NCBI RefSeq assembly: GCF_900115055.1
Contig: NZ_FOVD01000001.1
Coordinates: 248,001-312,000, forward strand
Source: Chryseobacterium oleae
Lineage (GTDB): Bacteria; Bacteroidota; Bacteroidia; Flavobacteriales; Weeksellaceae
Reading direction: 5' to 3'
DNA: 64,000 bases
Each line of letters opens with the position of its first letter. Position 1 is the stretch's first letter. The notes under the pieces are model-generated. The model saw only the letters and a list, made by a program, of their open reading frames with translations. It did no database searches and had not been told where the DNA came from. Both the position numbers and the translations under genes were made by a program. Shown here in pieces: positions 17,710-21,593 of this stretch.

Positions 17710-18648
17710 TCATGAGCGAAATTCCATTGGTGTGAAGGATGTTTTTCTTTTAAAAAAGTTGGAAAAGTGAGCTATTTCTTCAAAACCCAATGCATAGGAA
17801 ATCTCTGAGACATTCCATTTGGTCTGTCTTAAAAGGATTTTAGCTTCCTGAACCATGCGATCTGCGATAAATTCAGTGGTGGTTTTCCCGGTGCTTTCTT
17901 TTAATTTTTTGTTTAAATAATTCACGTGTACAGCCAGACGGTTTGCATAATCTTTGGCTGTTTTCAATTGCAGTCTCTGTTCCGAAGATTCGATAGGAAA
18001 CTGTCTTTCCAACAGCTCTATGAACAATGAAACCACTCTTAATGAAGCATCATTGGAAGCCGATAATTTCGCAGCAGGCTGCAACTTCTGCCCATAATGA
18101 ATGAGTTCCAGGACATAGTTTCTGATCAGGTCATATTTGAATACATAATCTGAATCTATTTCATTTTTTATCTTCCCGAAAAGCACTTCTATTTCGTCTG
18201 CCAGTTCATCTTCAATTTCAAATAAAGGAATGTTTCCGGGCTGAAATATAGGTAGCTCTTCCAATGAAAACCGGGATTGTGCCTTAATGAAAAAATCTTC
18301 TGTAAATACACAGAAACTCCCTGACTGATCAGGATCTTCAGGAACCCAGTGATACGGAACCTTTGGAGTGGCGAACAGCAATGCATTCTTCTTAATCGCA
18401 ACAATCTTATCTGCATACTCTGCCCTGTTCCTGCCTCTGATCAAACTGATTTTATAGTACTTACGCCGGTTATACGGCATTTCTGAAGTCATTTTTACCT
18501 TTTCTATGGTCTGCCTGATATCAAAAACATTAAAGTGTCCGATATCTTTACCAAGCCCTTTTGGAAAAATACTTTCAAGGTCTTTTCCCAGCTTGGCGGT
18601 CATTTCTTTATAAAAATCTTCAAGGGTTGCATGAGCGATCTTTTCCAT
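17710..18648 (-). CDS. AraC family transcriptional regulator
   Basis: A 312-residue regulator with an N-terminal cupin-like ligand domain (about 30-170) and a C-terminal pair of helix-turn-helix motifs (about 215-312) ending in WNVSEISYALGFEEIAHFSNFFKRK, the typical AraC/XylS signature. It lies upstream of the SDR gene on the same strand. In this phylum AraC regulators of this length commonly sit next to an SDR or an exporter they control. The regulator at 52752 has a related sequence, including NRR.YYK.S near residue 60. Confidence 0.92.
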   Translation of the reverse strand: MEKIAHATLEDFYKEMTAKLGKDLESIFPKGLGKDIGHFNVFDIRQTIEKVKMTSEMPYNRRKYYKISLIRGRNRAEYADKIVAIKKNALLFATPKVPYHWVPEDPDQSGSFCVFTEDFFIKAQSRFSLEELPIFQPGNIPLFEIEDELADEIEVLFGKIKNEIDSDYVFKYDLIRNYVLELIHYGQKLQPAAKLSASNDASLRVVSLFIELLERQFPIESSEQRLQLKTAKDYANRLAVHVNYLNKKLKESTGKTTTEFIADRMVQEAKILLRQTKWNVSEISYALGFEEIAHFSNFFKRKTSFTPMEFRS

Positions 18649-18781
18649 AGCGAACGATTTGTAAAATTCAAATATACAAAGTTGCTGTTATATGAAAATC
18701 AAATACAACTGAAATTTTAAAATGTCATTCAATGAGTATTTTTTATACCTTGGTTCAACCAAACAACAACCTATAATTATT

Positions 18782-18943
18782 ATGAAAAATCAAAATTTAG
18801 AAAACGGGAAAAAATTAAATAAGAAGGAATTGAGAAGCATTACCGGTGGATTGATGATCTGTCGTGATCCAAAAACCAATCAGTGCCGGATTTTTTCACA
18901 AGGCTGTGCCGATCCGCAATGCAGGCCCAACCCATTGGATTAA
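18782..18943 (+). CDS. double-glycine-leader Cys-rich peptide 1 (4-Cys type)
   Basis: A 53-residue precursor, first of six tandem homologues. The leader (1-23) is basic and ends GKKLNKKELRSITGG, a bacteriocin-type double-glycine leader normally cut after GG by a peptidase-containing ABC transporter. The core starts LMIC and has Cys-x7-Cys-x6-Cys-x4-Cys ending CRP. The true start is ATG at 18782, as all six members begin MK; an in-frame extension from 18722 is spurious. A hairpin terminator follows, so this copy is its own transcript. An antimicrobial or signalling role is inference. In related genomes such peptides are called bacteriocin-like, on the leader alone. Confidence 0.8.
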   Translation: MKNQNLENGKKLNKKELRSITGGLMICRDPKTNQCRIFSQGCADPQCRPNPLD

Positions 18944-18954
18944 CCGATGAAACA

Positions 18955-18987
18955 GAGTACCATTCCAAAAGGAGTGGTATTTTTTTA
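18955..18987 (+). terminator. terminator after peptide gene 1
   Basis: TACCATTCC pairs with GGAGTGGTA (one G-U pair) around a short A-rich loop, followed by a seven-T run. It separates peptide gene 1 from gene 2. Confidence 0.75.
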
Positions 18988-19129
18988 TGAATATCACAGA
19001 TCAATCAGCCGTACACCCATATTAAAACAACATATTTATTATTTGTTTAAATATTTATCATAATCAGGTGATATAATATCAATTTTTTTCTTTATTTTAG
19101 TTAAAGCTAACACACTAAAAATCAAAACA

Positions 19130-19294
19130 ATGAAAAATCAAGATTTACCTAAAGGGAAAAAACTGAACAAAAAGCAATTAAGAAGCATCACAGGTGGGCT
19201 CATGGACTGTATTGATCCCATGACCGGAGGATGCAGAAAAATATCAATAGGATGTGCACAATTACAATGCAGACCTTTCATAGATCCTTTATAA
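19130..19294 (+). CDS. double-glycine-leader Cys-rich peptide 2 (4-Cys type)
   Basis: A 54-residue precursor found by reading the gap between its neighbours. The leader ends GKKLNKKQLRSITGG and the core starts LMDC, with Cys-x7-Cys-x6-Cys-x4-Cys (second half CRKISIGCAQLQCRP). It has its own upstream A/T-rich region and its own strong terminator, so it is monocistronic. It is most like members 1 and 6. Function is unknown; see member 1 for the family argument. Confidence 0.8.
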   Translation: MKNQDLPKGKKLNKKQLRSITGGLMDCIDPMTGGCRKISIGCAQLQCRPFIDPL

Positions 19295-19305
19295 AAAATT
19301 AAATG

Positions 19306-19334
19306 AGCCGCTCATAATGGGAGCGGCTTTTTTT
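19306..19334 (+). terminator. terminator after peptide gene 2
   Basis: AGCCGCTC at 19306-19313 pairs perfectly with GAGCGGCT at 19321-19328, followed by a seven-T run. Confidence 0.88.
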
Positions 19335-19444
19335 ATGTTTCTCCATCATCCCCTATAATTTGGAATATTTTTTCTTCACTACGTGATATATGTTGATATT
19401 TTTCATATCTTAGTTTTTCAACTAACGTATTAAAAATCAAAACA

Positions 19445-19639
19445 ATGAAAAACTCATTTTTACAAAGAGGGAAAAAATTAAGTAAAAAAGAACTCAAAAC
19501 TATTGCCGGAGGTAAGCTGGACTGTATGGAACCTGTTTTATGTACAGACCCACCTTGCGAGGTATTCTCCTCTGACGATCCAAGAGCATGCACAAAAATT
19601 TCTGTAGGTTGTGCACAGAAAATATGCAGACCGCAATAA
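19445..19639 (+). CDS. double-glycine-leader Cys-rich peptide 3 (6-Cys type)
   Basis: A 64-residue precursor. The leader ends GKKLSKKELKTIAGG. The core starts KLDC and holds six Cys: C-x5-C-x4-C-x10-C-x6-C-x4-C. The last three Cys match the 4-Cys members, while the front has a longer loop with an added Cys pair and an acidic DDPRAC stretch. No terminator is seen between this gene and genes 4 and 5, so members 3-6 may form one transcript ending at 20436. Confidence 0.82.
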   Translation: MKNSFLQRGKKLSKKELKTIAGGKLDCMEPVLCTDPPCEVFSSDDPRACTKISVGCAQKICRPQ

Positions 19640-19684
19640 CTTTCACTACTACCGTAAATCACTGATAAAATAACGACAAGAACC

Positions 19685-19900
19685 ATGAAAAAAAACATTC
19701 TACAAGAAGCGAAAAAGCTAAGCAAAAAAGAACTTAAAACTATTGCCGGAGGCATGATGAATTGTATGGAACCTATTCTTTGTACAGAATTTCCATGCGA
19801 ACCAATTCCTCCAGGGGATCCAAGAGCGTGTACAAAAATTTCTGTCGGCTGTGCACAAAAAATATGCAGGCCGCAACCGGAGCCGGTATTTGTACCGTAA
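19685..19900 (+). CDS. double-glycine-leader Cys-rich peptide 4 (6-Cys type)
   Basis: A 71-residue precursor, nearly identical to member 3 in leader (KKLSKKELKTIAGG) and in the core end ACTKISVGCAQKICRPQ, with six Cys in the same spacing. It carries a short C-terminal tail PEPVFVP that the others lack. It is 45 nt after member 3 on the same strand. The high identity to member 3 points to a recent local duplication. Confidence 0.82.
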   Translation: MKKNILQEAKKLSKKELKTIAGGMMNCMEPILCTEFPCEPIPPGDPRACTKISVGCAQKICRPQPEPVFVP

Positions 19901-19951
19901 GCTTTAGTATACAGACTATTAAAAAAAAACTAACTAATCAAATCAAAGACC

Positions 19952-20155
19952 ATGAAAAAAATAATTTTACAAAGCGCGAAAAAGCTAAGCAAAAAAGAAC
20001 TTAAAACTATTGCCGGAGGTAAGCTGGATTGTATGAGGTCAAATCCTTGTATGGAGCCTTGTGAGCAGATCCCTCCCGGTACCTGTACCCGAATTTCTGT
20101 CAACTGTGCACAAAAAGAATGCAGACCACAGATTATCGATATATCCATTCAATAG
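19952..20155 (+). CDS. double-glycine-leader Cys-rich peptide 5 (6-Cys type)
   Basis: A 67-residue precursor. The leader again ends KKLSKKELKTIAGG. The core starts KLDC and has six Cys with a shorter middle (C-x5-C-x3-C-x7-C-x6-C-x4-C), then a tail IIDISIQ. It is 51 nt after member 4 with no terminator between them. The conserved last three Cys and CRP end are kept while the middle loop is trimmed, which suggests that the middle loop varies between family members. Confidence 0.82.
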   Translation: MKKIILQSAKKLSKKELKTIAGGKLDCMRSNPCMEPCEQIPPGTCTRISVNCAQKECRPQIIDISIQ

Positions 20156-20207
20156 CCTTTACTGTAAAAACAATTATTGAATATAATAAACCAAAAATCA
20201 AATCATC

Positions 20208-20387
20208 ATGAAAAATCAGAACTTAAGCAACGGTAAAAAATTAAACAAAAGAGAATTAAGAACAATTGTTGGCGGAAAAGAAATGTGCATTGATCCTTTT
20301 ACAGGAGAATGCAGAAAATACGGAAGAGGATGCGCTGAACAGCAGTGCCAACTGATCATTATAGATCCTATCGAGCGTTTATTCTAA
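20208..20387 (+). CDS. double-glycine-leader Cys-rich peptide 6 (4-Cys type)
   Basis: A 59-residue precursor read directly from the sequence. The leader ends GKKLNKRELRTIVGG (note IVGG rather than ITGG or IAGG). The core starts KEMC and has Cys-x7-Cys-x6-Cys-x4-Cys, but ends CQLIIIDPIERLF instead of the CRP end of the others. It is 52 nt after member 5 and is followed by a terminator that closes the array. Confidence 0.8.
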   Translation: MKNQNLSNGKKLNKRELRTIVGGKEMCIDPFTGECRKYGRGCAEQQCQLIIIDPIERLF

Positions 20388-20408
20388 TATCAAGAAATAT
20401 TTTTAAAG

Positions 20409-20436
20409 AACCACTCTCCTGCAGGGTGGTTTTTTT
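20409..20436 (+). terminator. terminator closing the peptide array
   Basis: AACCACT pairs with GGTGGTT (one G-U pair) around a GC-rich loop, followed by a seven-T run. Confidence 0.75.
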
Positions 20437-20501: not shown

Positions 20502-21593
20502 TTATACGTTGAATCTAAAGTGCATGATGTCTCCATCCTGAACGATATATTCTTTACCTTCTACAGAAAGTTTTCCGGCTTCTTTAATTTTCACTTCAGA
20601 ACCGTACGTTAAATAATCATTGTACTTGATTACTTCTGCACGGATGAACCCTTTTTCGAAGTCTGTGTGGATCACTCCGGCAGCCTGTGGAGCTGTCCAT
20701 CCCTGACCAATTGTCCATGCTCTTACTTCTTTTACACCCGCTGTAAAATACGTCTGAAGCTTCAGTAAGTCGTAAGCTTTTCTGATCAAACGGTTTACTC
20801 CAGGCTCTTCAAGACCTAATTCTTCAAGGAAAATCTCTCTTTCCTCAAATGTTTCAAGCTCATTGATATCTGCCTCGATCTGTGCTGCCAAAACAACAAC
20901 TTCTGCCCCTTCATTCTTAGCCATCGTTTCGATTTTCTCTATCCATTCGTTTCCGTTTTTGATAGAATTTTCGTCTACGTTGCATACATACAATACCGGC
21001 TTTTTCGTTAAAAGCTGGATATCATCAATGATGGGCTGCGTTAAGTCATTAACAGGAAATTCTCTTGCATTCTTTCCATCTTCAATGAACTTCTCTAAGT
21101 TTTGAAGGGTTTCGTATACAAGGATATCGTCTTTCTTTCCGGACTTGATGAATTTTTTAGCTTTTTCAACTGCTTTTCCTACCGTTTCAAGGTCTTTCAG
21201 CTGTAACTCGATGTCGATGATTTCTTTATCTCTCATCGGATCTACAGAACCTTCAACGTGGATGATATTACCATTGTCAAAACATCTTAAAACGTGGATA
21301 ATAGCTTCACACTCGCGGATGTTCGCAAGAAACTGGTTTCCCAATCCTTCTCCTTTGCTCGCCCCTTTTACAAGACCTGCAATGTCAACGATTTCAACTA
21401 CCGCAGGCAGTACTCTCTCCGGATTAACTAATTTTTCAAGCTCGAATAATCTCTGATCCGGTACCGATACCGTTCCTAAGTTCGGTTCTATGGTACAGAA
21501 AGGATAGTTCGCAGACTGTGCTTTAGCATTGCTTAAGCAGTTAAAAAGAGTTGATTTACCTACATTCGGAAGGCCTACAATTCCACATTTCAT
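20502..21593 (-). CDS. ychF: redox-regulated ATPase YchF (Obg/OLA1 family)
   Basis: A 363-residue conserved P-loop protein of the OLA1 branch that prefers ATP over GTP and associates with ribosomes. The G1 motif is GLPNVGKSTLFNCLS at 6-20, switch and G3 are in VDIAGLVKGASKGEGLGNQFL, and the C-terminal TGS domain includes AAGVIHTDFEKGFIRAEV. Length is exactly that of the family. A -7 box (TACCTTTG at 21705-21712 on the minus strand) lies about 110 nt upstream of the start. It converges on the peptide array. Confidence 0.97.
   Translation of the reverse strand: MKCGIVGLPNVGKSTLFNCLSNAKAQSANYPFCTIEPNLGTVSVPDQRLFELEKLVNPERVLPAVVEIVDIAGLVKGASKGEGLGNQFLANIRECEAIIHVLRCFDNGNIIHVEGSVDPMRDKEIIDIELQLKDLETVGKAVEKAKKFIKSGKKDDILVYETLQNLEKFIEDGKNAREFPVNDLTQPIIDDIQLLTKKPVLYVCNVDENSIKNGNEWIEKIETMAKNEGAEVVVLAAQIEADINELETFEEREIFLEELGLEEPGVNRLIRKAYDLLKLQTYFTAGVKEVRAWTIGQGWTAPQAAGVIHTDFEKGFIRAEVIKYNDYLTYGSEVKIKEAGKLSVEGKEYIVQDGDIMHFRFNV

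Follow-up and report, generated by a model that had tools for sequence, protein, structure and literature searches.

An array of six tandem genes for small cysteine-rich peptides lies in the genome of Chryseobacterium oleae (assembly GCF_900115055.1; 5.28 Mb in 16 contigs), at positions 18,782 to 20,387 of a 64,000-nucleotide stretch of contig NZ_FOVD01000001.1 (positions 248,001 to 312,000), which is the window of this analysis. The genes encode precursors with a double-glycine leader and cores of a conserved four-cysteine family. The cores are probably exported and oxidized by the products of a locus on another contig, which encodes a VKOR-thioredoxin fusion protein, an ATP-binding cassette (ABC) transporter with a C39 peptidase domain, and an HlyD protein. 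This reading draws on the leader type, the conservation of the core cysteines, and the co-occurrence of the array with VKOR in the genus.

Six precursors and their core family

The first-pass annotation of the window, made from the letters alone, described six precursors of 53 to 71 residues with a shared double-glycine leader. All six open reading frames (ORFs) proved to be intact on the + strand, with lengths of 53, 54, 64, 71, 67, and 59 residues for precursors 1 to 6:

18782..18943, + strand: precursor 1, 53 residues, four core cysteines, core 18851-18940 (ORF and alignment)
19130..19294, + strand: precursor 2, 54 residues, four core cysteines, core 19199-19291 (ORF, alignment, and reciprocal-best comparison)
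19445..19639, + strand: precursor 3, 64 residues, six core cysteines, core 19514-19636; opens the presumed operon of genes 3 to 6
19685..19900, + strand: precursor 4, 71 residues, six core cysteines, core 19754-19897 (ORF, alignment, and AlphaFold2 core model)
19952..20155, + strand: precursor 5, 67 residues, six core cysteines, core 20021-20152 (ORF and alignment)
20208..20387, + strand: precursor 6, 59 residues, four core cysteines, core 20277-20384 (ORF, alignment, and AlphaFold2 core model)

In each precursor the leader is 23 residues long and ends in GG, leaving cores of 30 to 48 residues (roughly 3 to 5 kDa). Invariant across the six are M1, K2, L6, the KKL.K..L..I.GG positions of the leader, four core cysteines, and one core alanine. 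The annotation placed a cysteine shortly after the double glycine, and it is the fourth residue past GG in every precursor. The C-x6-C-x4-C core that it described was likewise found in all six, and the even cysteine numbers held (4, 4, 6, 6, 6, and 4). At the position that its leader pattern left variable, gene 2 has Q and the other five genes have E. When the window was searched with a regular expression for leader and core, six ORFs matched; the same search of 100 first-order Markov versions gave no match, and one for the leader alone gave a single hit in the 100 versions altogether. Gene 1 has an alternative in-frame ATG upstream, at 18722, which would give 73 residues. Its relatives start at the place of 18782, which weakly favors the shorter form, since the starts were picked within 22 residues of the leader motif. 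Precursor 1 has reciprocal-best orthologues with 79 to 96% identity in seven of the eight relatives compared.

The published recognition pattern of peptidase-containing ABC transporters (PCATs) is Leu(-12)-x3-Glu(-8)-Leu(-7) before a double glycine (excerpt of PMC6363468). The six leaders carry L(-12), E(-8), L(-7), and the double glycine, with Q at -8 in gene 2. Across 257 family peptides, from the window and its relatives, L(-12), E/Q(-8), L(-7), I(-4), and GG dominate. The earlier assignment of the leader to the PCAT type thus agrees with the pattern as excerpted from PMC6363468. The leaders also resemble those of NF047798 (leader_Chryseo, "bacteriocin-like protein") and of NF047792 (CCPGW). 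Their NF047798 scores for precursors 1 to 6 were 16.6, 15.8, 21.3, 21.1, 21.2, and 14.2 bits, all below the cutoff of 23.5. Compared by eye, the array leaders are about five residues longer at the N terminus than that model, and the array peptides have a common core of their own. Since NCBI already models a close leader as "bacteriocin-like protein," neither the leader class nor secreted double-glycine peptides of Chryseobacterium are new. TIGR01847 (bacteriocin_sig), which describes the leader motif only, has a cutoff of 15.7; five precursors pass it (17.4, 15.8, 15.9, 16.3, and 16.7), and gene 6 falls below it at 13.7. The same genome holds 45 leader_Chryseo matches above the cutoff, mostly with cysteine-rich cores where these were extracted.

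Related loci were fetched at 73 places, from the best 80 of 86 stretches. The regular expression found the 257 family members in the window and in 72 of these 73 loci, a set selected for C-x6-C-x4-C. Within this selected set the number of core cysteines was 4 in 154 members, 6 in 85, and 8 in 18, and so even in 257 of 257; it was also even in 39 of the 40 leader peptides extracted from the genome of the array. The last two loops of the four-cysteine members are x6 and x4 in 154 of 154, as the selection pattern imposes. The first loop, which is free of the pattern, has 7, 6, or 5 residues in 98, 50, and 6 members. The four-cysteine unit occurs twice in 9 of the 18 eight-cysteine precursors, the nine that were aligned, and at least one other eight-cysteine member is a six-cysteine core with two extra cysteines. 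As judged from these sequences, the unit of the family is a four-cysteine module, C-x(5-7)-C-x6-C-x4-C, with a third cysteine pair in some copies and an in-gene doubling in others.

Cysteines were kept in 0.999 of pairwise comparisons, above every other core residue, and the frames of the relatives are intact. On the side of sequence, the first-pass annotation named broken frames in relatives and unconserved core cysteines among its grounds for discarding the array, and neither was found. The ratio of nonsynonymous to synonymous substitution (dN/dS) came to 0.115 in cores and 0.080 in leaders across 30 reciprocal-best pairs from eight relatives picked by closeness, with no identity threshold. 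A first estimate (core, 0.08; leader, 0.15) was biased downward by its restriction to pairs with 70% identity or more. The cores are under purifying selection. Each locus holds 1 to 9 family members, and paralogues are 38 to 72% identical to the first member. Most cores are neutral or anionic, with a mean net charge of -1.0, and cysteine and histidine make up 13.4% and 0.7% of their residues.

The first-pass annotation did not recognize the core as a known bacteriocin, and the family searches gave the same answer, with no Pfam family and no good match among solved structures. A Pfam search with 61 cores returned just three single weak matches, and a sequence-profile search of the PDB returned two, both limited to leader positions 6 to 18. 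The AlphaFold2 core models were moderately confident (precursor 4, mean pLDDT 77.9 and pTM 0.50; precursor 6, mean pLDDT 80.7 and pTM 0.41). Foldseek found no match for the six-cysteine core model and one, at E 9.3, for the four-cysteine core model. A literature search of open-licence papers, judged by titles and the starts of abstracts, returned nothing on such arrays. Within the reach of these literature and family searches, the four-cysteine core family is new, and so are the doubling of its unit within single genes, the syntenic position, the promoters and transcription units, and the link to the VKOR-C39-HlyD locus.

A candidate exporter-oxidase locus

The annotation saw no transporter near the array and reasoned that export would need one elsewhere in the genome; three C39-peptidase ABC transporter genes were found there. 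The gene on contig C14, separate from the contig of the array, lies with genes for a VKOR-thioredoxin fusion (VKOR, PF07884, with Thioredoxin_4), an HlyD protein (HlyD_3), and two leader peptides. The VKOR protein has two CxxC motifs. By eye, the cysteine and histidine of the C39 domain are placed as expected in all three transporters; an aspartate precedes the proline in those of C14 and C8, and an asparagine does in that of C7. One C39 transporter gene stands beside a gene for a disulfide-forming type of enzyme, which lends support to the earlier suggestion that the cores carry disulfides. The order VKOR-C39-HlyD is kept in seven of seven further stretches of the same genus (L162 to L166, L169, and L170), with C39 proteins 90 to 99.7% identical. 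In two stretches from another genus of the taxonomic family (g23), VKOR and HlyD are adjacent, with C39 at the end of the stretch in one of the two.

The array and the VKOR gene co-occur. The family was found in 46 of 60 sampled genomes of the genus (E 1e-8), including one genome (G120) with a single match (E 7.5e-11) that is perhaps not an array member. A VKOR match (E 1e-60) was present in 57 of the 60, including 46 of 46 with the array, one of these copies being broken (Fisher p 0.011, not corrected for phylogeny). In 45 of the 46 array genomes, VKOR and a C39 gene are no more than 4 kb apart; the exception is G150, in which the best C39 match is at a contig start. Ten of the 46, G155 and G120 among them, have a single C39 match (E 1e-5), and each time it is the one linked to VKOR. 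The three VKOR-less genomes (G128, G169, and G172) have neither an array nor a leader_Chryseo match at E 5e-4. At this threshold, among 20 genomes hand-picked to include the VKOR-less ones, 6 to 42 leader_Chryseo matches were found in 16 of 17 VKOR-bearing genomes and none in the three without VKOR (p 0.0035, not corrected for phylogeny). G169 keeps a C39 orthologue (92% identity), so that in this genome the peptides are missing together with VKOR and not with C39.

In the mechanism that we propose, the six genes make secreted mini-peptides that would be unmodified except for two or three disulfides. The C39 domain of the C14 transporter would cut the precursors after GG. The ABC part and the HlyD protein, together with a postulated outer membrane channel, would export the cores of 30 to 48 residues, and the VKOR-thioredoxin protein would oxidize cysteine pairs to form two or three disulfides. 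One exporter would serve the array and some 45 other candidate double-glycine-leader precursors scattered in the genome.

Several observations weigh against this assignment. The VKOR gene of G155 contains stops and is in two pieces, although this genome has eight matches to the family and 41 to leader_Chryseo. In G146 no leader_Chryseo match was found at E 5e-4, even though VKOR and a C39 orthologue are present. Since 11 of the 14 array-less genomes retain VKOR, the enzyme is not specific to the array. The exporter is unlinked to the array; the pairing therefore stands on co-occurrence, which was not corrected for phylogeny. The array leaders fall below the leader_Chryseo cutoff, so that we infer, rather than observe, a single exporter for both sets of peptides.

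The broken VKOR gene of G155 (G155:C1:4131916-4133420) reflects either decay or an assembly error; the assembly is 95% complete, with 4% contamination. The two other C39 transporter genes have neighbors of a different kind. At C7:346900 (L137:8844-16495), about 35 kb past the window end, a C39 transporter is followed by the N part of a lantibiotic dehydratase, a TIGR03891-type protein, and a LanC-like protein; by its predicted gene content, this locus is a class I lanthipeptide-like cluster. At C8:356791-359459 (L138), a radical-SAM/SPASM maturase of 742 residues lies beside a C39 transporter. Four leader_Chryseo matches lie at C8:370770-371370, about 11 kb from this maturase.

Genomic site, distribution, and transcription units

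The array is bordered by two genes on the opposite strand:

17710..18648, - strand: AraC-type regulator (Pfam HTH_18/HTH_AraC), divergent neighbor at the left edge of the array site
20502..21593, - strand: presumed ychF-type GTPase gene, a conserved housekeeping neighbor at the right edge

In 69 of the 73 places, the array sits between an AraC/SDR gene pair and ychF; in the remaining four, one or both marker genes were not recognized. Further copies lie beyond AraC in 24 of the 69. All 14 genus genomes without the family have ychF, and AraC adjoins it in 11 of them. In four of these 11 the gap between AraC and ychF is just 256 to 367 bp, with the SDR gene following. Another six of the 11 have in the place of the array an ORF of 355 to 366 residues with a lipoprotein-like start. 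Two of the three array-less genomes without AraC beside ychF have another gene there. Because of this layout in array-less genomes, we read the array as a variable insertion in a constant position and the AraC/SDR pair as untied from the array.

Other genes occupy the same site. A lipoprotein-like gene of about 360 residues with no Pfam match (L067:11087-12163) has relatives in 20 fetched loci and is absent from the window; it adjoins ychF or AraC at the array site, and similar-looking ORFs occur in array-less stretches (L176, L177, L179, L182, L185, and L186). In L079, L117, L126, L130, and L134, and partly in L136, three or four other genes (about 259, 376, 217, and 341 residues) are inserted as a block between AraC and ychF. 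Because another gene block is inserted at the same place, the data suggest that the AraC-ychF site is an insertion hotspot.

Control of the array by the AraC-type neighbor, as one regulated cluster, would be an addition to the proposed mechanism rather than an alternative to it. In favor of such control, the regulator was recognized as a neighbor of the array at 71 of the 73 places, and the copies beyond AraC in the 24 places mentioned above leave the AraC/SDR pair flanked on both sides. Against it, 11 of the 14 array-less genomes still have the regulator next to ychF, including the four with the short gap and a following SDR gene. The pair is for this reason independent of the array, and the idea of a dedicated array regulator was rejected. 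The AraC-type protein is probably not part of the array system, and we consider control by it unlikely.

The 73 loci were found in a named genome collection; 72 are from Chryseobacterium and one is from a Weeksellaceae metagenome-assembled genome. Among 120 genomes of the taxonomic family, 13 matched at E 1e-4. Nine of them were among the twelve genomes of the same genus; four of these nine matched weakly, with a best E of 5.9e-6 to 3.9e-5. The other four came from g23, a genus represented by at least five genomes in the sample. The peptides of g23 form a C-x-C variant and lie next to a gene that we take to be clpB-like. The genome of the array carries a corresponding pair, a C-x-C variant relative and a second cysteine-rich peptide of double-glycine type, beside the corresponding gene, 93% identical (C14:351282-351534; L010 and L173).

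Folding and motif searches of the array gave the following elements:

18746..18753, + strand: presumed -7 promoter element of gene 1, TACCTTGG, one base off the tested motif, at -36 from the ATG
18954..18983, + strand: terminator-like hairpin 3' of gene 1, -16.5 kcal/mol, z -5.0, with a T run; missed by the pattern scan
19093..19100, + strand: presumed -7 promoter element of gene 2, TATTTTAG, matching the tested motif TA..[TC]T[TA]G
19305..19329, + strand: terminator-like hairpin 3' of gene 2, z -3.9, found by folding and by the pattern scan
19406..19413, + strand: presumed -7 promoter element of gene 3, TATCTTAG, matching the tested motif TA..[TC]T[TA]G
20405..20435, + strand: terminator-like hairpin 3' of gene 6, -14.5 kcal/mol, z -3.9; missed by the pattern scan

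Folding showed no terminator-like hairpin in the three gaps between genes 3, 4, 5, and 6. The stricter pattern scan found, on the + strand, the gene 2 hairpin alone, with 1.2 expected over both strands. The motif TA..[TC]T[TA]G, which we take to be a Bacteroidetes-type promoter element, occurs at -40 to -31 from the ATG in 62 of 142 family genes that have an upstream gap of more than 100 bp or are first in their locus, compared with 1 of the 115 remaining family genes; the motif had been relaxed beforehand so as to match genes 2 and 3 of the array, both of which are in the tested family. A sigma-70 consensus scan was uninformative, with 7 sites against 7.7 expected. Because hairpins follow genes 1, 2, and 6 and -7-like elements precede genes 1 to 3, the array is likely to form three transcription units, namely, gene 1, gene 2, and genes 3 to 6. 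The first-pass annotation had given several copies their own terminators and the rest a possible operon, and this arrangement fits the folding result of hairpins after genes 1, 2, and 6 and none within genes 3 to 6.

Comparison with known systems and possible role

Among known systems, the bacteroidetocins come closest; they are proposed as class IIf bacteriocins of Bacteroidetes (PMC6671954), and we compared them by published features and not by peptide alignment. Both sets are small double-glycine-leader peptides of Bacteroidetes hosts with at least two, and often four, cysteines. Both have a double-glycine-peptidase ABC exporter and a thiol oxidoreductase thought to form disulfides, these two being candidates in the case of the array. 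No immunity protein was found for the bacteroidetocins (excerpt of PMC6671954), and none was seen by the array among ORFs of at least 110 residues. Deletion of the thiol oxidoreductase weakened bacteroidetocin activity, according to the same excerpt. In the array, the cores carry 4 or 6 cysteines, where class IIf asks for at least two in about 35 to 50 residues; two of the six cores are shorter (30 and 31 residues). The bacteroidetocin leader has 15 to 16 residues, whereas that of the array has 23. The mature bacteroidetocins are of about 42 to 48 residues, and the array cores are of 30 to 48 with a cysteine pattern of their own. A bacteroidetocin is encoded as one peptide in a four-gene region with a transporter, an oxidoreductase, and a protein with five transmembrane segments. 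The array instead encodes tandem peptides, and its exporter, which has an HlyD partner, and its oxidoreductase are on another contig. Bacteroidetocins occur in few strains on larger genetic elements, as excerpted, while the array is widespread in the genus and syntenic. Thus, judging from sequence features, the array appears to work like the bacteroidetocins and yet falls outside them on two of the features compared, the length of the leader and the linkage of the exporter.

Two other systems share parts of this design. Class IIa microcins such as microcin V have a double-glycine leader, a PCAT with a membrane fusion protein, and a product that is unmodified except for possible disulfides (excerpts of PMC9746304 and PMC10233263). 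Microcins come with a cognate immunity gene and are about 5 to 10 kDa, whereas the array cores are smaller and no such gene was seen near them among ORFs of at least 110 residues. The neighbors of the array are AraC, SDR, and ychF, and their comparison across loci, covering ORFs of at least 110 residues and double-glycine-leader peptides, revealed no consistent additional gene; immunity proteins of just 51 residues are known (excerpt of PMC9746304). Prochlorococcus makes prochlorosins from up to 30 double-Gly precursors, which resemble the Chryseobacterium peptides in combining great diversity and number with one leader type per genome (excerpt of PMC6363468). Prochlorosins carry thioether (lanthionine) cross-links; the array peptides would carry disulfides, and the L138 radical-SAM maturase is absent from most of the genus.

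Our leading guess for the role of the peptides, which we hold tentatively and by analogy, is that they may antagonize other bacteria as bacteroidetocins do, without a dedicated immunity gene. The same export and oxidation could instead deliver peptides that are not weapons, such as conserved signals, surface or matrix components, inhibitors, or host-directed factors, a possibility that we place next and hold somewhat less likely. Four findings favor the latter and count against an antibacterial role: the fixed site in 69 of 73 places, the core dN/dS of 0.115, the mostly neutral to anionic cores, and the lack of a consistent immunity-like gene among ORFs of at least 110 residues. The wide conservation of the family likewise leaves room for a non-weapon role. 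On the other side, the 1 to 9 copies per locus and the diverging paralogues (38 to 72%) are as in weapon repertoires, and the family is dispensable, because 14 of 60 genomes are without it. Bacteroidetocins are likewise without immunity proteins in the excerpted account (PMC6671954).

Two further explanations would change what the cysteines do. If the cores were enzymatically modified members of the ribosomally synthesized and post-translationally modified peptides (RiPPs), their cysteines would be thioether linked through radical-SAM or lanthionine chemistry. The genome does have a radical-SAM/SPASM maturase (L138) and a lantibiotic-dehydratase/TIGR03891/LanC-like set (L137) beside C39 transporters, and some leaders resemble TIGR04149, the model of radical-SAM-modified RiPPs, below its cutoff. 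That cutoff is 25, however, and the six precursors score at most 19.6. The L138 enzyme, the one maturase surveyed, was matched at E 1e-60 in 7 of the 60 genomes, and just 5 of the 46 array genomes had such a match; on this ground radical-SAM maturation as a general need was rejected. In 10 of the 46 array genomes the sole C39 gene adjoins VKOR. We therefore consider enzymatic modification improbable. Metal binding by cytoplasmic or periplasmic, metallothionein-like peptides could account for the cysteine content of 13.4%. It is at odds with a secretion leader that has the PCAT positions, with the co-occurrence with VKOR, which points to oxidized cysteines, and with a histidine content of just 0.7%, and we give it very little credence.

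Export and oxidation of the array cores through the VKOR-C39-HlyD locus thus remains the reading that we prefer. Chryseobacterium species are common environmental, occasionally opportunistic bacteria. A broader picture, which we put forward as a speculation, is a secretome with one exporter and many cargoes in much of the genus, in which dozens of candidate disulfide mini-peptides per genome (about 50 here), encoded by scattered and tandem genes, would pass through a single VKOR-PCAT-HlyD machine. The family at the ychF site would then be a conserved branch of this secretome, acting as a conserved secreted factor and not a classical bacteriocin, within a prokaryotic counterpart of defensin- or conotoxin-like repertoires. 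The four-cysteine module would be a small disulfide scaffold, one for which the PDB searches gave no good match. If the proposed link is true, losing VKOR or the adjoining C39 gene would abolish a whole class of secreted peptides together. An orphan array thereby becomes a testable system, in which one exporter-oxidase locus is expected to feed dozens of Chryseobacterium disulfide peptides.

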